From positions 186,001 to 250,000 of the forward strand of contig NZ_AYMR01000007.1 in NCBI RefSeq assembly GCF_000633535.1: a stretch of DNA of 64,000 nucleotides, written 5' to 3'. Source of the stretch: Leifsonia aquatica H1aii (lineage in GTDB: Bacteria; Actinomycetota; Actinomycetes; Actinomycetales; Microbacteriaceae). The notes beneath the pieces were generated by a model. That model saw only the letters and a list, made by a program, of their open reading frames with translations, did no database searches and was not told the DNA's origin. Both the position numbers and the translations under genes were made by a program. Every line of letters starts with the position of its first letter. Within the stretch, counting starts at the first letter, position 1. This document shows positions 24,502 through 33,840 of the stretch, one piece after another.

Positions 24502-25545
24502 ATGGATCGCATCGACGAGGACCTGCCTCCGCTGAACGAACGGGTGACCGCACCACCGACGTACACGCCGCGGCATCCCTTGATCGCCCGCTGGCGTCCG
24601 GCGACCCGGGAGGACGTCGATGCCGTGTGGGAGGTCGTGCGCGCGGCGGACGCCCTGGAGCACCCGAACTACCTCGCCACGCGCGAGGAGGTCGCGGAGG
24701 AGCTGGGCTACAGCTTCGTGGACCTGGAGCACGATTCGCTGCTCGCCGAGACCGCGGACGGTCGCGTCGTCGCCGTCGGCGTCGTCGTCGAGCCGCCGGG
24801 CAAAGAGACGCTGGTGCGGGAGTTCCTGAACGGGGGAGTTCATCCGGAGTTCGCCGGGCGCGGGATCGGACGCGAGCTGCTCGCGTGGCAGCTCGCGCGT
24901 GGCGAGCAGAAGCTCGCCGCCTCCACTGAACGTCTGCCGGGCTGGCTGGTCGGCTATGCGGACGAGCGCGCACCCCGGCGCGAGAACCTGCTGAGGGCGG
25001 GCGGACTGGAGCCCGTCCGCTACTTCCTGGGGCTGGAGCGGGATCTCGCCGCCCCCGTGCCGACGGTCGTCCCCCTGGACGGCGTGCGCGTCGTCCCGTT
25101 CGCCCCCGCGCTCTCGGAGGCCGCGCATCGTGCACGCGACGAAGCGTTCGGTGACCACTGGGGGAGTCAGCCGATGAGCGACGAGCAGTGGGAGACCTTC
25201 CTCGGCGGCACCTTCCGCGCCGACCTGTCCTTCGTCGCCCTCGCGCCGGGGACCGACGGCGAGGAGGTCGTCGGTGTGGTGATGAGCCAGGTGAACGAGG
25301 ACGACTGGACATCGCAGGGCTTCACCGGGGCGTACGTGGCGATGCTCGGCACGACGCGCGCGCATCGGGGCCGGCGGATCGCGCCCGCGCTCCTCGCTGC
25401 GACGCTGTCGGCGTGTGCCGAGCGGGGCTGGGAGCGGGTGACGCTCGACGTGGATGCGGAGAATCCGACCGGCGCCCTGGGCCTGTACACCCGGCTCGGC
25501 TTCGTCGGAGCGACCCGGGAGACCGGCCTGGTGCGCGCCTACTGA
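24502..25545 (+). CDS. GNAT-family N-acetyltransferase with two GNAT domains
   Basis: 347 residues. Two GNAT-like halves are visible. The first (~30-160) contains the acetyl-CoA loop GGVHPEFAGRGIGRELLAW; the second (~195-347) contains TRAHRGRRIAPALLAATL and then NPTGALGLYTRLGFVGATRE, a classical motif A/B arrangement. Tandem GNAT proteins in actinobacteria include mycothiol synthase and others, but the substrate cannot be read here. It sits alone after the alpha operon and ends convergently with the acyltransferase gene, overlapping it by seven bases. Confidence 0.8.
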   Translation: MDRIDEDLPPLNERVTAPPTYTPRHPLIARWRPATREDVDAVWEVVRAADALEHPNYLATREEVAEELGYSFVDLEHDSLLAETADGRVVAVGVVVEPPGKETLVREFLNGGVHPEFAGRGIGRELLAWQLARGEQKLAASTERLPGWLVGYADERAPRRENLLRAGGLEPVRYFLGLERDLAAPVPTVVPLDGVRVVPFAPALSEAAHRARDEAFGDHWGSQPMSDEQWETFLGGTFRADLSFVALAPGTDGEEVVGVVMSQVNEDDWTSQGFTGAYVAMLGTTRAHRGRRIAPALLAATLSACAERGWERVTLDVDAENPTGALGLYTRLGFVGATRETGLVRAY

Positions 25546-27596
25546 GGGCGGGGCCCGGCCTTGTCCCAGGGGTTCGCGGGACGGACGGAGGAGTGCTCGG
25601 CGAGGGTGTGCAAGGCCGCGCCCAGCGCCTCGGCGTAGACGAGTCCGCCGCGGTGCCCGGGGTGGATCTGGTCGTCGGCGAGCAGGTCCAGGTGCTCGGC
25701 GATCGCCTTCTTCCAGTCGGCGACGAACACTCGCCCGGGGTGCGCCGCGGCGAAGCCGTCGAGGGTCGTGTTGACGCCGTCCGTCCACGAGCGCGGTGCC
25801 TGGACGTTCACCAGCACCAGGTGACGGCGTGGCCCGATCGCATCGAGCACCTCCTGCAGGCTGTCCGCCGCGATGGATCCGTTGGTGCCGAGCCCGAGGA
25901 CGACGACGTCGCGCAGTTCCCCGGAGGACGCGGCCGCCGCGATCATCTCCGGGGCCTTGCTCATCTGGCGGGAGACGACCGCGTCGACCGCGATCCCTGG
26001 ATACGTCTCCTGCAGGGCCGGTGCGGAGGCGAGCATGACGGAGTCGCCGAACGCCGAGATCTCCGGACCCTTCGCGATCGGGTGCGGGTCCGGGGGGACG
26101 CGCCGGTGGGCGGACGACGGCGCGGGGGTGGCGGGCGCGGTGGCGGTCACCGGGCCCGGGCCGTGGAGCGATGCGGCCCCCTGCTCGATCATCCGTTGGG
26201 CGGCCGTGGCCGTCGGCGCGACGACCATGGCCGCGACGGTGAGCAGCACGAGGACGGCGGCGAGCACGGTTCCCGCGATCCCGGCGACCCGCGTGGACCG
26301 CGAGAGGCGCATGCGGACGCGGGCCCGCCGGAACGCTCCACGCAGTCCGTGCGTGCGGATGGGCTGCTCCAGGTAGCGGTACGACAGCGATGCCGCGGCG
26401 CCGGTCACGGCGAGCGAGCCCAGGCCGACGAACAGCGCGGCGACCGGCTCGTTCTCGTCGGGCACGAACGCGCACGCGAGGACGAAGACCGGCCAGTGCC
26501 ACAGGTACAGGCCGTACGAGCGGGCGCCGACGAATCGCAGCGGCGCGAGATCGAGCGTGCGGCCGAGGGAGGAGCGGGGCGTGATCGCGGCCCAGATCGC
26601 GATCGCGCTCAGCAGGCTCACCAGGGCGAGACCACCGCGGTAGGTGAACGCGGAGTCGGACGTCATCGCGTACGCGCAGACCACCAGCCCCACGACCGAG
26701 AGCGCCCCGAGCGGCGGCAGCCAGCGGCGCACGAACGTCTGGAACCGGCTCTCGCCGGCGTCGAGGTCGAGCGGGCGCATGCGCAGCACGAGGAGGGCGA
26801 GCGCGGCGCCGAGCGCGAGCCCGAAGCTGTGGGTGTCGGAACCGAAGTAGACACGCGTCGGGTCCTCGCCGGGGACGTAGAGCACGGCCATCCAGACGGC
26901 CGAGCCCACGGCCGCCGCCAGGACGATGGTGAAACGTGCCCACCACGGCTTCAGCAGGGCGAGCGCGAGCAGGACGAGGGGCCAGACCAGGTAGAACTGC
27001 TCCTCGACCGCGAGCGACCAGAGGTTGCGGAAGAGTTCGGGCGCGCCCTGAGCGAAGTAGCTCGAGTCGGCGGCCACCGAGAGCCAGTTGGCGCTGAAGG
27101 TCACGGCGCCGAGGACCTGCCGCGGCAGCCCGACCAGCACGTCGCCGCCGAGGGCGAAGGCGACGCTCGAGCAGACGATCACGAGCAGCCCGATCGCGGG
27201 GAGCAGGCGGCGCGCGCGTCGTATCCAGAAGCGCCGCAGATCGATCCGTCCGGTCGCGCGACGCTCCCGCACCAGCAGGCTGGTGATCAGGAAGCCGCTG
27301 ATCACGAAGAAGACGTCGACGCCGATGAATCCGCCGGGGAGGACGCCCGGGAACAGGTGGTAGACCAGCACGACCGCCACCGCGAACGCACGCAGCCCGT
27401 CGAGTCCCGCGTAGCGGATCGCCGACGGAGTCGACGGACCGCTGCCCGGCGTCGCCGCCCGTGGAGCGGGAGCATCGGGTCGGACGGTCACGGCGGGCCG
27501 GACGGTGAGAAGTGGCAAGACAGTCTCTGAAGCGATCGGGGGCGGGGGCGGGAGAATGCCGTGCCGCTGCGGGCACGGAAGCGCCCACGATAGCAA
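25539..27596 (-). CDS. acyltransferase-3 (OafA-type) membrane protein with SGNH domain
   Basis: Up to 685 residues. The membrane half opens with YAGLDGLRAFAVAVVLVYHL and GGFIGVDVFFVISGFLITSL, the signature of OafA/YrhL O-acyltransferases, and has about ten helices. The soluble C-terminal domain has SGNH hydrolase blocks: GDSVM (Ser), LGLGTNG and DDQIHPGH (Asp/His). Such proteins O-acetylate cell-surface glycans. The start is uncertain: TTG 27596 gives the longest frame, but a TATCGT box lies just inside it, and TTG 27518 or GTG 27491 may be used. It is divergent from truA and may act on the polymer suggested by the nearby nonulosonate cassette (inference). Confidence 0.85.
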   Translation of the reverse strand: MLSWALPCPQRHGILPPPPPIASETVLPLLTVRPAVTVRPDAPAPRAATPGSGPSTPSAIRYAGLDGLRAFAVAVVLVYHLFPGVLPGGFIGVDVFFVISGFLITSLLVRERRATGRIDLRRFWIRRARRLLPAIGLLVIVCSSVAFALGGDVLVGLPRQVLGAVTFSANWLSVAADSSYFAQGAPELFRNLWSLAVEEQFYLVWPLVLLALALLKPWWARFTIVLAAAVGSAVWMAVLYVPGEDPTRVYFGSDTHSFGLALGAALALLVLRMRPLDLDAGESRFQTFVRRWLPPLGALSVVGLVVCAYAMTSDSAFTYRGGLALVSLLSAIAIWAAITPRSSLGRTLDLAPLRFVGARSYGLYLWHWPVFVLACAFVPDENEPVAALFVGLGSLAVTGAAASLSYRYLEQPIRTHGLRGAFRRARVRMRLSRSTRVAGIAGTVLAAVLVLLTVAAMVVAPTATAAQRMIEQGAASLHGPGPVTATAPATPAPSSAHRRVPPDPHPIAKGPEISAFGDSVMLASAPALQETYPGIAVDAVVSRQMSKAPEMIAAAASSGELRDVVVLGLGTNGSIAADSLQEVLDAIGPRRHLVLVNVQAPRSWTDGVNTTLDGFAAAHPGRVFVADWKKAIAEHLDLLADDQIHPGHRGGLVYAEALGAALHTLAEHSSVRPANPWDKAGPRPQ

Positions 27597-27664: not shown

Positions 27665-28531
27665 ATGACCGACCTGTCGACGCGCTATCGGCTGGACATC
27701 GCCTACCAGGGCACCGACTTCAACGGCTGGGGCCGGCAGCCGGGCCTCCGCACGGTGCAGGGGGTGCTGGAGGAGACGCTGGCGACCATCTTCCGCCGCG
27801 CCGGGGACGCTCCGGCGCTCACGGTCGCGGGGCGGACGGACGCCGGGGTCCATGCCGTCGGGCAGGTGGCGCATGTCGACTTGACGGCCGCCCAGGTGGC
27901 GGTGCTGCGCAAGCCGCACGGGAAGCGGCCGCCGCTGCCCGCCGGGGAGGCCCTGGCTCGCCGCATCAACGGCGTGCTCGGCCCTGTCCCCGATGTGGTG
28001 ATCCGTCGGGCGAGCGAGGCGCCGGCCGGTTTCGACGCGCGGTTCTCGGCGCTGTGGCGGCGCTACGAGTACCGGGTCGCCGATCGAGACTCCTTCCGCG
28101 ATCCGCTGCAGCGCCACCGCATCGCGTGGGTGTCGTCCGAGCTCGACGTGGCAAGGATGGACATGGCCGCGCACGGTCTGCTCGGTCTGCACGACTTCGC
28201 GAGCTACTGCAAGGCGCGGGAGGGGGCGACGACGATCCGCACGCTCCAGGCCTTCTCGTGGCGGCGGGACGCCGACGGCGTCCTCGTCGGGGAGGTCGTC
28301 GCGGACGCCTTCTGCCACAGCATGGTGCGGGCACTGGTGGGGGCGTGCGTGGAGGTCGGCGAGGGCAAGCTCGAACCGGGGGACCTCGTCGGGCTGCGCG
28401 ACGAGGAGCGGCGCACCAACGCGTTCAAGGTGATGCCGGCGCGCGGTCTGACGCTGCTGGACGTCGGCTACCCGGAGGGGGCGGAGCTGTCGCTGCGCGC
28501 GGAGCAGACCCGGGCTCGGCGTTCGCTCTGA
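27665..28531 (+). CDS. truA: tRNA pseudouridine(38-40) synthase
   Basis: 288 residues. TruA modifies uridines 38-40 of the tRNA anticodon arm. The catalytic Asp is in VAGRTDAGVHAVGQVAHVD, and the RRYEYRV and DFASYCKA blocks are typical. The last ~35 codons (28425-28531) overlap antisense with the 3' end of the leftward glycosyltransferase gene. truA in many actinobacteria follows rplQ; here two genes intervene. Confidence 0.95.
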   Translation: MTDLSTRYRLDIAYQGTDFNGWGRQPGLRTVQGVLEETLATIFRRAGDAPALTVAGRTDAGVHAVGQVAHVDLTAAQVAVLRKPHGKRPPLPAGEALARRINGVLGPVPDVVIRRASEAPAGFDARFSALWRRYEYRVADRDSFRDPLQRHRIAWVSSELDVARMDMAAHGLLGLHDFASYCKAREGATTIRTLQAFSWRRDADGVLVGEVVADAFCHSMVRALVGACVEVGEGKLEPGDLVGLRDEERRTNAFKVMPARGLTLLDVGYPEGAELSLRAEQTRARRSL

Positions 28532-29798
28532 CCGGGCGCAGCCGACGGGCCAGCCGTTTCCCGGCCCGGATCGGCGTCCCGATGATCAGCGCCACCCGGC
28601 CGAGCGCGCTGCGGTCGTGCGGTCCGAGCGCGATCTTGCGCTCCCAGGCACGGCGGAGCGCCCCGCCGCGGTTGCGGCGAGCCGGGGGCCGATCGGCCAG
28701 CCTCGCGGCGTCGCGTGCGACCATCAGCCGTTCGACCCGTCGCGCCCAGTCGTCGTCGCTGACGGGGTGGAAGTAGTTGTCGTCCCGCCAGTGCGGATCC
28801 ACCGACCCGAATCGGCCGGCGACCAGCTCCGCGGCGGTGCCCTCGGTGCCGCTTCCGACGAAGACCTCGTTGATGAGCGCGCGCGAGACCCCGAAGTCGG
28901 TCAGCGTCAGCACGGGGACGCCGCGGCCGACGGCCTCGATCATCGCTGTCGAGCTCACCGTGACGAGTGCGAGCGCTCGATCGAGATGCGCGTCCATCGG
29001 CCCGGTCTCCACCGTGAGGTTCGCCGGGGCGTCCTCCGGGACCAGATCGGCGTAGGGATGGGTCTCGCGGTGGGTCTGCTGCTCGCCGCGGACCGCACGG
29101 GTCTTGATCACGACGCGCCACTCGGGGTGGGCGGCGGCGGCCGCAGCCAGCCAGCCGACGAGAGCCCGGCGGTCCTCCTCCGCGGCGGGCACGCTGGGCT
29201 GTGCGGCGAAGACGACGGCGTCGCGGCGGACTGTGGCCGATCGGGTGCCGGCCTCCGCCGAGGGCGCCGGACCATCGGTGCGGAGGAACGGCAGCGTCGC
29301 GAGTGCGAAGTGCGGCTCGACTCCGCCCGACTCGGCGAGGGCGGTGTACTCGCGCACCTCCCGGCGGCTGTGCAGGACGAAGAGGTCGGCGCGTGCCCGG
29401 AGGAACAGCCCCTTCCATTTGGCCGGGTAGGAGATGCCGGGCAGGCCCGTCACGATCACGGGGCGGTCCCGCACACGGCGATGGAGCTGGTCGATCAGCA
29501 GCTCCGCGACCGGTCCGAGCGTCGCGACCAGCACCGCGTCCGGCGGGTCGGTGCGCACCCGGTCGACGATCGCGTCCATCGGGACGGCCGTCGGCGGGTC
29601 GTCGGCGAGGGCGGACAACCGGTCGTCGAGGCCGTGGAAGGCGGAGCGCAACTGGTCGCGGCTTGCGGCGGTAGGGGTCGCGACCGGGACCAGCTCCAGC
29701 CTCCAGTCCTCCGGCGCCGCCGCGAGCAGGTGAGCGCCCCACTTGGCGAAGGAGTCCGTGTCGACGACGCCGAGGACGCGGCGGGTCACCTCACGCAC
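28425..29798 (-). CDS. putative glycosyltransferase of nonulosonate cassette (DUF6716-like)
   Basis: 457 residues, GTG start overlapping the neuB stop by eight bases. I recognise it as resembling the actinobacterial family annotated DUF6716 putative glycosyltransferase. Features include the N-terminal VVDTDSFAKWGAHLL, LPGISYPAKWKGLFLRARAD in the middle and a GT-B-like C-lobe with VTVSSTAMIEAVGRGVPVLT. The last ~80 residues are Arg/Ala/Pro-rich and partly antisense to truA. Position after NeuB and NeuA-HAD suggests transfer of the activated nonulosonic acid onto a cell-wall polymer. Substrate and linkage are inferred, not shown. Confidence 0.7.
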   Translation of the reverse strand: MREVTRRVLGVVDTDSFAKWGAHLLAAAPEDWRLELVPVATPTAASRDQLRSAFHGLDDRLSALADDPPTAVPMDAIVDRVRTDPPDAVLVATLGPVAELLIDQLHRRVRDRPVIVTGLPGISYPAKWKGLFLRARADLFVLHSRREVREYTALAESGGVEPHFALATLPFLRTDGPAPSAEAGTRSATVRRDAVVFAAQPSVPAAEEDRRALVGWLAAAAAAHPEWRVVIKTRAVRGEQQTHRETHPYADLVPEDAPANLTVETGPMDAHLDRALALVTVSSTAMIEAVGRGVPVLTLTDFGVSRALINEVFVGSGTEGTAAELVAGRFGSVDPHWRDDNYFHPVSDDDWARRVERLMVARDAARLADRPPARRNRGGALRRAWERKIALGPHDRSALGRVALIIGTPIRAGKRLARRLRPVRANAEPGSAPRAATAPPPPGSRRPAASDRAPASP

Positions 29799-30663
29799 CC
29801 ACCCGGCGCAGCTTGGACAGCGGGGCCAGCTCGCCGGGGAAGACGCGCTTGACGCCGTCGCCGAGGGCGGTCTCGATGATGCGGATGTCGCGGGTGAGGG
29901 TCCGGACGCCGTGCGGCTCGAGCGATGCCGCGTGGTCGGACCCCCACATCGTCCTGTCGAGGGTGATGTGGCGCTCCACCGCGGTGGCGCCGAGGGCGAC
30001 CGCGGCGAGCGAGATCTGCAGCCCGGGTTCGTGACCGGAGTACCCGATCGGGATGCCGGGGTACCGGGCGGCGAGTGTGCCGATCGTGCGGAGGTTGGCC
30101 TCCTCGGCGGGGAGGGGATAGGTGGAGGTGGCGTGCAGGATGACGAGACGGTCGGTTCCGAGGGTCTCGACGGCGCGGTCGATCTGGTCGAGCGTCGACA
30201 TCCCGGTCGACAGGATCACCGGCTTGCCGGTCGCGGCGACGGCCGAGAGGAGGCCGAGGTCGGTGACCGACGCCGAGGCGATCTTGTAGGCGACGACGTT
30301 GAGGTCCTCCAGGAACGCGACCGCCGGCTCGTCCCAGGGCGAGGCGAACCAGTCGAGGCCGCGCAGGGTCGCGTGGTCGCCGACCTCGATGTACTGGTCG
30401 CGGTCGAACTCGACCCGGTAGCGGTACTCGAGATAGCTCATGTCACCCCACGGGGTGCTCCGCGGGACCGCCTTCATGTGCTCCGGGGTGGAGATCTCGG
30501 GCGTGCGCTTCTGGAACTTCACCGCCTGCATGCCGGCGTCCGCGGCCACGTCGACGAGTTGCTTGGCGATCTCGACGTCGCCGTTGTGGTTGAGGCCGAT
30601 CTCGCCGATCAGGTAGGCGGGGTGGCCGCCGCCGATGGGGGTGCGGCCGATCTGCACGGTCAT
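29791..30663 (-). CDS. neuB: NeuB-family nonulosonic acid (Neu5Ac/Kdn-type) synthase, SAF domain absent
   Basis: 290 residues; typical NeuB has about 335-350. It condenses phosphoenolpyruvate with a hexose or its 6-phosphate. The TIM-barrel motifs are intact: IGEIGLNHNGDVEIAKQL, AVKFQKRTPE, ILSTGMSTLDQ, SGHEPG and VERHITLDRTMWGSDHAASL. The protein ends at PLSKLRRVGA, just where the C-terminal SAF (antifreeze-like) domain normally begins. Starts four bases inside the end of the upstream gene (overlap). Exact substrate is unknown; lack of a NeuC epimerase nearby favours mannose-derived Kdn. Confidence 0.85.
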   Translation of the reverse strand: MTVQIGRTPIGGGHPAYLIGEIGLNHNGDVEIAKQLVDVAADAGMQAVKFQKRTPEISTPEHMKAVPRSTPWGDMSYLEYRYRVEFDRDQYIEVGDHATLRGLDWFASPWDEPAVAFLEDLNVVAYKIASASVTDLGLLSAVAATGKPVILSTGMSTLDQIDRAVETLGTDRLVILHATSTYPLPAEEANLRTIGTLAARYPGIPIGYSGHEPGLQISLAAVALGATAVERHITLDRTMWGSDHAASLEPHGVRTLTRDIRIIETALGDGVKRVFPGELAPLSKLRRVGA

Positions 30664-31856
30664 GATGCTCCGTTCCGGTGGGTGAGGACGAGGTCTGCGA
30701 GTTCCCGCACGGCGCCGTCGCCGCCGCGGCGGGTGAGGACGTGCCGGGCGGCGGCGAGGACGGCGGGGTGGGCGTCGGCGACGGCGACGGGCCAGCCGAC
30801 CGCGTCGAGCGCTCCCAGGTCGTTGACGTCGTTGCCGAGGTAGGCGACGCGGTCGAGGGCGATGCCGGTCTCGGCGGACCAGCGGCGCAGCGCCGTCGCC
30901 TTGTCGGCGACGCCGTGCAGCACGTCCACGCGCAGTTTCGCCGCGCGGGCCGCGACGACCGGGTTGGTCTCGGTGGAGAGGATGAGCAGGGGGACGCCGG
31001 CCTCCCGCAGCATCCGGACGCCCATCCCGTCGCGGCGGTTGACGACGACCGTCTCGGTGCCGTCGCTGGCGACCGCGGCGCGGTCATCCGTGTGAACGCC
31101 GTCGAAGTCGGTCACGACGGCGTCGACGTCGATCGCGGGCACCGGGTCGGGTGCCGGGTCGAGCAGCGGGTCGAGCACGGCGGCGACGGCGGTCGCGACC
31201 AGCAGGTCCGTCGGATCGTCGATGTCGATCGCCCCCCGCGGGTCGACGTCGGCCAGTTCCACGCGCCCGAAGAAGCGGTGGCGCGCCCGGCGGAATCCGT
31301 CGGCCCGCAGCGCAGAGAACGCGCCGGTCTCTCGGAATTCCGGGGCCCGATCCTGCCGGCGCGGGCGGACGGCCGCGTCGTGGTTGACGGCGACCGCCGC
31401 GCCGTCGTCGCCGATCCGCCAGAGGAAGGCGTGCGAGGGGGCCGCGGCGACCACGACATCGGCCTCGCCGGAGAGCACCCGGGCGACCGCGGGGCCGAGA
31501 TCCGCCGGGTCGATGAACGGAGAGGTCGCCTGCAGGAAGAGGAGCACCTCCGGGCGCACGCCACGCTCGTCCAGTACGTCGAGGGCGTGCAGCAGCGCCT
31601 CTTCGGAGGACGCCGTGTCTCCGGACAGCGCGGCGGGCCGCGCGATGGTCTGCGCCCCGGCGGCGATCGCCTCGGCCGCGATGCCCTCTCCGTCGGTGCT
31701 CACGTAGACGGCGTCGACGAGAGGGGCGGCGAGGGCCGCGTGCACCGCACGGGCCACCAGGCTGCGCCCGGCGATCGGGGCCAGGTTCTTGCCGGGGATG
31801 CCTTTCGAGCCGGCGCGGGCGGGGATCACCGCGACGACACGGACGGGGGAGTGCAT
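30660..31856 (-). CDS. neuA: CMP-nonulosonate cytidylyltransferase fused to KdsC-like HAD phosphatase
   Basis: 398 residues. Residues ~5-225 are a NeuA-type cytidylyltransferase: IPARAGSKGIPGKNLAPIAG, FLQATSPFIDPADL and DIDDPTDLLVA. Residues ~242-395 are a HAD phosphatase of the KdsC/C0 type: TDFDGVHTDD nucleophile motif, LLILSTET and YLGNDVNDL. One polypeptide could thus dephosphorylate a 9-phosphate product and activate the acid with CTP. First gene of the cassette; TAGCGT lies six bases before the ATG, so the message is likely leaderless. Confidence 0.85.
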   Translation of the reverse strand: MHSPVRVVAVIPARAGSKGIPGKNLAPIAGRSLVARAVHAALAAPLVDAVYVSTDGEGIAAEAIAAGAQTIARPAALSGDTASSEEALLHALDVLDERGVRPEVLLFLQATSPFIDPADLGPAVARVLSGEADVVVAAAPSHAFLWRIGDDGAAVAVNHDAAVRPRRQDRAPEFRETGAFSALRADGFRRARHRFFGRVELADVDPRGAIDIDDPTDLLVATAVAAVLDPLLDPAPDPVPAIDVDAVVTDFDGVHTDDRAAVASDGTETVVVNRRDGMGVRMLREAGVPLLILSTETNPVVAARAAKLRVDVLHGVADKATALRRWSAETGIALDRVAYLGNDVNDLGALDAVGWPVAVADAHPAVLAAARHVLTRRGGDGAVRELADLVLTHRNGAS

Positions 31857-31962: not shown

Positions 31963-32607
31963 TCAGCGCACCAGCCCGTTCTCGTAGGCGAACGCGACCA
32001 GTTGCACGCGTGACGCCAAGCCGAGCTTCTGCAGGATGCTGCGCATGTGGCTCTTGACGGTGGTCTCGGAGATGAAGGCCACCTGTCCCGCGTCCGCGTT
32101 GCTGAGCCCGCGGGCAGCGAGCAGGAACACCTCCTTCTCCCGCGCGGAGAGCGCGGCGATGGCCTCGGTGCGCGCAGGCACCCGTTCGCCGCCGAACAAC
32201 GCGGCGGTCTCCTTCGGTGCGATCACGGCGTGCCCGGCGTGGACCGTCCGGATGGCGGCGAGGAGGAAGTCGGGCGTCGTGTCCTTCATGACGAAGCCGT
32301 CGGCGCCCGCCCGCATCGCGCGGGCGACCGCTTCGTCGCGTTCGAAGGTGGTGAGGACGACGATGCGGGGTGCGTCGTCGCCGGTCGCCTCCGCGCGGAT
32401 CCGCTCGGTGGCCCGGATGCCGTCGAGCACGGGCATGCGCAGGTCCATCAGCACGACCTGCGGGCGATCCCGCAGGACCAGCGCGACACCGGCCGCGCCG
32501 TCGTGCGCGGCTCCCGCGAACTCCAGGTCGGGCTGCGACTCCAGCAGCATCCCGATACCGGAGCAGAACAACGGCTGGTCGTCGACGACGGCGACGCGGA
32601 TCGTCAT
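31963..32607 (-). CDS. LuxR/NarL-family response regulator
   Basis: 214 residues. Receiver domain residues 1-120 with acidic pocket Asp9/Asp10, phosphoacceptor Asp55 (VVLMDLRMPV) and conserved Lys in GFVMKDTTP. A LuxR helix-turn-helix follows at ~150-210 (LSAREKEVFLLAARGLSNAD, SETTVKSHMRSILQKLG). Its ATG overlaps the end of the kinase gene by four bases. It probably controls its own operon and possibly the adjacent nonulosonate cassette (inference from proximity). Confidence 0.92.
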   Translation of the reverse strand: MTIRVAVVDDQPLFCSGIGMLLESQPDLEFAGAAHDGAAGVALVLRDRPQVVLMDLRMPVLDGIRATERIRAEATGDDAPRIVVLTTFERDEAVARAMRAGADGFVMKDTTPDFLLAAIRTVHAGHAVIAPKETAALFGGERVPARTEAIAALSAREKEVFLLAARGLSNADAGQVAFISETTVKSHMRSILQKLGLASRVQLVAFAYENGLVR

Positions 32608-33818
32608 GCGAGCACCGCCTGCGCGGCCGGGATGAATGCCGTGACCAGATATCCCGCGACGCCGTCGCTGTCGTCGGGTCCGGATTCGAGCCAGCCGCCC
32701 GCGAGCCGGGCGCGCTCCCGCATGCCGTGCAGCCCGCGTCCTCCGCCCTGCTCCGGCGGGGCCGCCTCGGAGGCGGCAGCGCCGCCGCCCGACGAGACCG
32801 CGATCGTCATCCCGCCGCCCCGGGCGTCGAGCACGACGCGGGCGCTGGCCGCGGCGCCGCCGTGCTTGAGCGCATTCGTCAGCGCCTCCTGCACGATCCG
32901 GTAGACGGCGAGCTCCTGGGTCGCGGTCAGCCCGTCCGGCTCTCCGTAGCGCTCGACGGCGACGGCGAGGCCGGCGTCGCGCATCCGGTCGATCATCGGA
33001 TCGAGGTCCTCGATCGCCGGGAGCGAGCGCCCGTCCGGTTCGGAGACGAGGGTCTCGATCAGCATCCGCACTTCGGTGAGCGAGGTGCGCGCCGAGGCGG
33101 CGATCGTGGCGAGGGACTGGGACATCGCCTCCGGACGCTCGTCCGCCAGTGATCGTGCGCCGTCAGCCTGGGCGAGGATGACGGACAACGAGTGGGCCAT
33201 GATGTCGTGCACGTCCTGGGCGATCCGCTCCCGCTCTCCGGCCACCGTCGTGGCCACCTCGGCCGTGCGCAATTCGAAGGTGGTCCGAGCGAGCTCCTGG
33301 TCGCCGTCGCGCTTCCTGGCCCACACCCCGATGAGGGTGCCGACCACCCATGCGACCGCACCTGCTGCGGCGCACAGCACGAAGAACATCGTCCGGGCAC
33401 CCGGATCGCCACGTGCGACGCCGAGCCACCATGCCAGCAGGCCGGCGGTCGAGAGCCCCGCACCGACCGCGAAGACGAAAGCGCCGACCCGCATCCGCCC
33501 CTCGACCGAAGCGGAGACCACCAGGATGATGACGGCGTATCCGAGGTAGGCGAGCGGCTCGTCGAAGATTCCACCGGGGAAGAGGAGTTGCCCGAGGAGC
33601 ACGGCCGTTCCGATGGCCATCGAGAGGATCGGCTGCAGGCGGGAGATCCCGATCGCCACGGCGACGAGGAGCAGCGCCGCCCAGAAGGGAACGGTATTGC
33701 GCAGCATGCCTGGACCGAGCTGATGCCGGCCGACCTCGGCGACGGCCCAGAAGCTGAAATACGCGACAGCGATGGTCGGTTCGAGGAGCCAGCGGCTTCG
33801 CAGGAGGAACGCACTCAT
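32604..33818 (-). CDS. NarL-type sensor histidine kinase
   Basis: 404 residues from ATG 33818, chosen because a TAGCGT box ends seven bases upstream; GTG 33827 lies inside that promoter. Six predicted membrane helices fill residues ~12-168. The HisKA_3 dimerisation motif ERERIAQDVHDIMAHSLSV carries the phospho-His at residue 204. The ATPase domain has the N-box ALTNALKHG and G2-type GGGRGLHGMRERARL; the G1 DxGxG motif is replaced by a Ser/Gly-rich stretch, as in some actinobacterial relatives. The signal is unknown; a membrane or cell-envelope cue is plausible. Confidence 0.9.
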   Translation of the reverse strand: MSAFLLRSRWLLEPTIAVAYFSFWAVAEVGRHQLGPGMLRNTVPFWAALLLVAVAIGISRLQPILSMAIGTAVLLGQLLFPGGIFDEPLAYLGYAVIILVVSASVEGRMRVGAFVFAVGAGLSTAGLLAWWLGVARGDPGARTMFFVLCAAAGAVAWVVGTLIGVWARKRDGDQELARTTFELRTAEVATTVAGERERIAQDVHDIMAHSLSVILAQADGARSLADERPEAMSQSLATIAASARTSLTEVRMLIETLVSEPDGRSLPAIEDLDPMIDRMRDAGLAVAVERYGEPDGLTATQELAVYRIVQEALTNALKHGGAAASARVVLDARGGGMTIAVSSGGGAAASEAAPPEQGGGRGLHGMRERARLAGGWLESGPDDSDGVAGYLVTAFIPAAQAVLA

Positions 33819-33820
33819 AC

Positions 33821-33840
33821 CCGTCACGCTAGAGTGACGG
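33821..33840 (-). promoter_or_regulatory. inverted repeat over the two-component system promoter
   Basis: CCGTCAC-N6-GTGACGG is a perfect 7-bp inverted repeat. The leftward -10 box TAGCGT (33826-33831) lies inside it, seven bases before the kinase ATG. This is the geometry of an operator for feedback control. Confidence 0.5.

Follow-up and report, generated by a model that had tools for sequence, protein, structure and literature searches.

Kdn (ketodeoxynonulosonic acid), a nitrogen-free sialic acid, is made in Bacteroides thetaiotaomicron by the successive action of a Kdn-9-phosphate synthase, a phosphatase, and a cytidine monophosphate (CMP)-Kdn synthetase. Published accounts describe a Kdn-containing teichulosonic acid in Streptomyces walls (PMC11481543, PMC7831098), name SCO4873-SCO4882 as teichulosonic acid genes (PMC13011467), and report a Kdn capsule in Sinorhizobium fredii SVQ293 (PMC9000132, PMC7845648). 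For Serratia marcescens KL1/KL2, the literature describes a capsule locus with neuA and neuB whose product is mostly KDN, with N-acetylneuraminic acid (Neu5Ac) at about 1 to 20. Here, we analyzed a compact cassette of three genes in a 64,000-nucleotide stretch of the actinobacterium Leifsonia aquatica H1aii (contig NZ_AYMR01000007.1, positions 186,001 to 250,000), hereafter called the window. With a probability of roughly 0.6, this operon makes and uses CMP-Kdn by a route from mannose-6-phosphate, with transfer to an envelope glycan by a DUF6716 protein. The three genes are as follows.

30660-31856, minus strand: NeuA cytidylyltransferase-HAD phosphatase fusion, 398 amino acids (Pfam, NCBIfam, and PDB matches)
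29791-30663, minus strand: NeuB-family synthase, 290 amino acids, without a SAF/antifreeze domain (Pfam NeuB and PDB sequence match)
28425-29798, minus strand: DUF6716 putative glycosyltransferase, 457 amino acids, predicted GT-B fold (PF20471 and AlphaFold2 model)

Consecutive open reading frames (ORFs) share 4 bases (30660-30663) and 8 bases (29791-29798), end to start, and the operon, which holds these three genes only, lies between truA and rplM. The initial annotation had recognized three overlapping leftward genes for a NeuA-HAD fusion, a NeuB, and a putative glycosyltransferase, and the ORFs, Pfam, and NCBIfam all agree with it. Conservation of the proteins across 80 loci further indicates that these are not chance ORFs. 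The 80 loci, mostly from Microbacteriaceae, are the best of at least 575 found in a scan of named genomes, so near relatives are over-represented among them. All 80 have NeuB; NeuA was found in 79, DUF6716 in 74, and the HAD domain in 61. In 72 loci, DUF6716 follows NeuB on its strand, at most 623 bases downstream. Six loci gave no DUF6716 match at E ≤ 1e-10; one of them, L016, ends nearby and was partially matched under a looser threshold. What we observed directly comprises the gene identities, the conservation of active-site residues, the linkage, and the distribution.

The best clue to the sugar comes from the phosphatase half of the fusion protein. The NeuA domain occupies about residues 1-225 (CTP_transf_3, 3.7e-20; PDB match 9t4z) and the HAD domain about residues 239-398 (Hydrolase_3, 3.7e-11; PDB match 3mmz), the latter being KdsC/KDN-9-phosphatase-like by NCBIfam. 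The HAD domain has the catalytic residues Asp250 and Asp252 and a specificity pair, Glu296/Lys307, and all four residues are invariant in the window protein and its 61 HAD homologues. Our alignment matches the Glu/Lys pair with Glu56 and Lys67 of 3e81, which we take to be the Bacteroides Kdn-9-phosphate phosphatase; the first of these positions is Ala in PDB entry 4hgq, and both are Ala in 4hgr, while KdsC 1j8d has Arg/Asp. Assuming that this pair is the mark of the Kdn-9-phosphate phosphatase lineage, its presence supports placing the HAD domain in that lineage. A 9-phosphate product would in turn call for a 6-phosphorylated hexose, either mannose-6-phosphate, giving Kdn, or N-acetylmannosamine (ManNAc)-6-phosphate, giving Neu5Ac. 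We also considered a route to the 8-carbon sugar KDO (ketodeoxyoctulosonic acid) and rejected it, as the synthase is of the NeuB family and the HAD domain has Glu/Lys rather than the Arg/Asp of KdsC 1j8d. Against the KdsC equivalog, the HAD domain scored 107.1 of the 208 bits at the cutoff.

The synthase matched Pfam NeuB (PF03102) at 1.2e-77, with no Pfam match to a SAF domain at E ≤ 1. Its closest PDB sequence was 6ncs, and it was also aligned to 1xuu. E21, K49, Q51, K127, E230, H232, and D243, positions that we assume to be catalytic from the Neisseria enzyme, are identical in all 80 loci. The score against the Neu5Ac synthase NeuB/NnaB model (TIGR03569) was 258.2 bits, below the curated cutoff of 399.65, a shortfall due in part to the missing C-terminal domain. 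For pseudaminate, the protein reached 206 of 340.25 bits against the synthase PseI, and the fusion 102.2 of 205.7 bits against the cytidylyltransferase PseF. Pseudaminate and Neu5Ac equivalog assignments were accordingly rejected. The window's genome has a single NeuB-family gene; the initial annotation's claim that legionaminate and pseudaminate enzymes are absent was followed across the genome through the NeuB family only.

In the proposed pathway, NeuB would form Kdn-9-phosphate from mannose-6-phosphate and phosphoenolpyruvate, the phosphate would be removed by the HAD domain, and Kdn would be converted to CMP-Kdn by the NeuA half of that fusion protein. DUF6716 would then place Kdn onto a glycan of the cell envelope, probably a wall glycopolymer resembling teichulosonic acid. 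Our inferences from the sequences concern the substrate, the succession of reactions, the donor used by DUF6716, and the location in the wall.

Several points weigh against this pathway. The window's genome has WecB, NanE, and a gene of the N-acetylglucosamine (GlcNAc) 2-epimerase family. The HAD domain scored 92.2 bits against the NCBIfam model of the Bacteroides-type KDN-9-phosphatase (NF058599), below its cutoff of 180. NeuA has no HAD domain in any of the 12 Curtobacterium loci or in six others (L017, L021, L028, L030, L031, and L049). In Foldseek and VIA-align, the DUF6716 model matches UDP-GlcNAc 2-epimerases best, and we know of no tested activity for this family. The polysialyltransferase family (PF07388) was not found in the window's genome. 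Lastly, the Serratia neuA/neuB loci yield both KDN and Neu5Ac.

The Serratia mixture speaks for the most serious rival, which we consider unlikely: that the product is Neu5Ac, alone or mixed with Kdn. NanE would then supply ManNAc-6-phosphate, NeuB would form Neu5Ac-9-phosphate, and the HAD and NeuA domains would finish an animal-type phosphorylated route. The NanE of the window's genome belongs to the PRK01130 subfamily, above cutoff, and adjoins a ROK kinase, and together with the WecB and GlcNAc-2-epimerase-family genes it means that ManNAc-6-phosphate may be available there and that, going by gene content, this genome may make Neu5Ac. By eye, its neighborhood of transport-like permeases and a GntR-like regulator has a catabolic look, which argues against this rival, as does the unreached Neu5Ac synthase cutoff, for which the missing C-terminal domain is partly responsible. 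The initial annotation had rested its Kdn assignment on the lack of an epimerase. At the locus this holds, and no NeuC stands above cutoff anywhere in the genome: the sole Epimerase_2 protein is WecB by cutoff (278.5 bits versus 210.15) and scored 42.3 bits against NeuC (TIGR03568), below the cutoff of 235.9. As a statement about the whole genome it fails, given the three epimerase-type genes named above. Nor did we accept the lack of NeuC, by itself, as an argument for Kdn, because a phosphorylated route would use ManNAc-6-phosphate and needs no NeuC, and NanE is present.

Substrate supply was examined across cassette-bearing genomes. NanE and Epimerase_2 were searched in the genomes of 50 of the 80 loci, mostly isolates (G000, L012, L046, L050, L053, L065, and L066 were omitted), and GlcNAc_2-epim and mannose-6-phosphate isomerase were searched in the same 50 plus G000. 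Presence means any match at E ≤ 0.001, however weak, in genomes that may be incomplete and from which contigs shorter than 3,000 bases were excluded. Mannose-6-phosphate isomerase was found in 49 of the 50 genomes, NanE in 14 (12 above cutoff), and the UDP-GlcNAc 2-epimerase family in 21; a further search, for the GlcNAc 2-epimerase family, gave matches in 8, a few of them weak. All three ManNAc-forming families were unmatched in 21 genomes, 15 of which have the HAD domain; in these 21, no source of ManNAc or ManNAc-6-phosphate was found among the three families, while mannose-6-phosphate has a source. ManNAc is therefore unlikely as the general substrate. Altogether, the mannose-6-phosphate route put forward in the initial annotation is favored by the Glu/Lys pair, by these 21 genomes, and by the published Kdn glycans, with the argument from NeuC removed.

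A further alternative, which we regard as somewhat less probable than Neu5Ac, is that Kdn is made and DUF6716 only caps a glycolipid, a glycoprotein, or a single glycan, so that there is no nonulosonate wall polymer. Relatives' loci contain polysialyltransferase-family matches in 28 of 80 cases and GT2 matches in 30 of 80, and PF07388 is present in L119, L120, L124, and L125 (apparent Streptomyces and Nonomuraea clusters), yet no polysialyltransferase was found here; within the operon itself, nothing resembles a polymer export system. On the other hand, Kdn wall polymers have been published for Streptomyces (PMC11481543, PMC7831098), and a polymerase may lie elsewhere, since among the other glycosyltransferases of the genome only the polysialyltransferase family was searched. 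The cell-wall polymer of the initial annotation, and the role of polymerase or primer enzyme that it gave the glycosyltransferase, are candidate readings.

The DUF6716 protein is a full-length match to its family (PF20471, 4.1e-127, 424.3 bits, cutoff 27), and its AlphaFold2 model is GT-B-like, with a mean predicted local distance difference test score of 88.4. The top epimerase match of the model had Z 19.6 and a root mean square deviation of 4.0 over 310 aligned residues, and GT-B glycosyltransferases came next at Z 16-18; because both match closely, the fold does not settle the activity. Sialyltransferase and KpsC families were not in the structure-match lists, which do not exclude them. 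Despite these top-ranking structural matches, we set aside as very improbable the idea that DUF6716 is a disguised epimerase of the NeuC/WecB fold, given the close GT-B matches, the absence of EAGLR, presumably the typical epimerase motif and visible in this genome's own WecB, from all 42 rows of the DUF6716 alignment (the window, 38 of 50 extracted DUF6716 proteins, and 3 others), the null hhalign comparison with that WecB (probability 0.3), and the weak alignment of a C-terminal motif to a Capsule_synth protein (E 0.0025 over 32 columns). DUF6716 showed no similarity to the one polysialyltransferase protein compared, and its alignment profile gave nothing significant against PDB sequences. 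A literature search returned no mention of DUF6716, most subscription papers being outside its reach.

Association with NeuB is what suggests that DUF6716 is a nonulosonate transferase. Among 396 sampled genomes of the phylum, DUF6716 was above cutoff in 17 and below cutoff in 5 more, and NeuB was matched in 62. All 17 DUF6716-positive genomes fall within these 62 (Fisher 2.6e-15, ignoring relatedness) and are exactly the 17 with the highest NeuB identities, at least 61%, a limit noticed only after the fact; the next two genomes by identity (60% and 56%) are without DUF6716. As for position, a NeuB is no more than 2,049 bases from 21 of the 22 above-cutoff DUF6716 segments, the remaining segment being a second copy 428 kilobases off. 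Nonomuraea, Sinorhizobium, and Tritonibacter also have DUF6716 close to NeuA and NeuB. Tentatively, and with rather less confidence than we place in the Kdn route, DUF6716 may be a family of GT-B glycosyltransferases that serve CMP-Kdn or nonulosonates like it, and the core transferase of Kdn cassettes in Actinobacteria and alphaproteobacteria, with Curtobacterium having kept the pathway after phosphatase loss and another phosphatase or an unphosphorylated route standing in.

Presence of the HAD domain was compared with a NeuB tree. The window's NeuB grouped with the 12 Curtobacterium loci (Shimodaira-Hasegawa-like approximate likelihood ratio test, 99) and, at the next level, with Humibacter and L035 (96); the tree is a quick one in which L127 and the Sinorhizobium rows have very long branches, and so only the starred grouping of the window, Curtobacterium, and Humibacter was used. 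The HAD trait would need at least two changes by starred branches and 8 at fewest on the tree as drawn. In a whole-genome HAD search that covered 22 of the 80 loci's genomes, all 4 fusion-bearing genomes gave strong matches, the 12 Curtobacterium genomes gave none at E ≤ 0.001, and the six other genomes gave none in four cases and weak ones in two (3.3e-8 and 3.2e-4). So the phosphatase can disappear from the pathway or have its step performed by something else. The initial annotation had proposed a minimal three-protein route; as a general rule it does not stand, since the phosphatase domain is missing from the 12 Curtobacterium loci, which keep NeuA, NeuB, and DUF6716; three-protein sufficiency is at most true of this locus. 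One of these copies, in Curtobacterium sp. MCBD17_032 (L013:7156-8876), has in-frame stops in its NeuB and NeuA matches and may for that reason be broken or mis-sequenced.

Several relatives depart from this arrangement. In Nonomuraea gerenzanensis (L125:7672-9864), a single open frame of 730 codons holds NeuA, HAD, and NeuB as an apparent triple fusion, linking the phosphatase with the pathway of the other two. In L072 and L122, among them Aeromicrobium, a further DUF6716 gene stands next to the cassette in divergent orientation. A family without a Pfam match, f41, accompanies 11 of the 80 cassettes and the apparent Streptomyces clusters (L025:7081-8001, L044:4551-5534, L119:5674-6960); inspection by eye shows an ESPLQL stretch near the N terminus and a DDG, which we take to resemble the motif of bacterial sialyltransferases. 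A search of the window's genome with one f41 protein came back empty, which is no evidence of absence. Microbacterium indicum DSM 19969 carries two NeuB loci (L025 and L054) in one genome, one with DUF6716 and f41 and no NeuA match, the other with NeuA-HAD and no DUF6716. On a contig filed as a Spirochaetia metagenome-assembled genome (L042:2120-6739), a NeuA-HAD-NeuB set resembles those of Microbacteriaceae, with Capsule_synth and pyruvyl-transferase genes following in place of DUF6716; the contig is possibly mis-binned or a transfer.

Around the window's cassette, the 3' ends of truA (plus strand) and the DUF6716 gene (minus strand) meet tail to tail with a 107-base overlap, 28425-28531. Upstream of the cassette, at a distance of 106 bases, are a response regulator of the NarL/LuxR type and a HisKA_3 histidine kinase (31963-33827, minus strand), which may control the cassette. 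The chromosomal site of truA, rplQ, and rplM is common to two of the 80 loci, L019 and L035, in which the regulator and kinase had no match. Just past truA, an Acyl_transf_3 gene of the O-acetyltransferase type (25539-27596, minus strand) could decorate a wall glycan; it was matched in none of the 80 loci.

If the proposed pathway is correct, the cassette is a compact set of genes by which Kdn in the envelopes of Gram-positive cells can be predicted, the precursor is mannose-6-phosphate rather than amino sugars, and DUF6716, an unstudied family, is a likely Kdn transferase whose activity can be tested directly. Among the papers listed, our literature search found none on a Microbacteriaceae cassette of this kind, within a reach that left out most subscription papers.

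Among known systems, the apparent Streptomyces clusters share NeuA, NeuB, and DUF6716 with the window. In three apparent Streptomyces genomes, genes for these proteins, GT2, and a polysialyltransferase lie together, with HAD in two; in L120, NeuA and NeuB lie in one open frame with no HAD match, and in L119 the HAD domain is identical to 3mmz, presumably a Streptomyces avermitilis protein, at 146 of 153 residues. The gene order of these clusters appears to fit the names given to SCO4877-SCO4881 (PMC2267785), within the SCO4873-SCO4882 region, a match of published gene names rather than of sequences. The window differs in having three genes only, in its truA-rplM site, and in being without GT2, polysialyltransferase, and f41 neighbors. 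The three proposed activities are those of Bacteroides thetaiotaomicron, with the phosphatase Glu/Lys pair (3e81) in common; the window differs in joining phosphatase and cytidylyltransferase in one polypeptide and in its subthreshold score on the Bacteroides-type model. In Sinorhizobium (S. meliloti pSymB and S. fredii plasmids), NeuB, the NeuA-HAD fusion, and DUF6716 also stand side by side, but NeuB is only 34-35% and DUF6716 26-28% identical to the window proteins. The cassette, with these more distant proteins, is present in two other strains of S. fredii, SVQ293 or its parent not being among the 11 plasmid records found. The Serratia NeuB differs by an extra COG1082 domain, and its sugar sits in a Gram-negative capsule. 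Altogether, the Kdn cassette is a known kind of system, Kdn wall polymers of Streptomyces having been described already, and the modestly new points are the tight link of DUF6716 with NeuB proteins of this type, the disappearance of the phosphatase domain from Curtobacterium, and the argument from mannose-6-phosphate supply.

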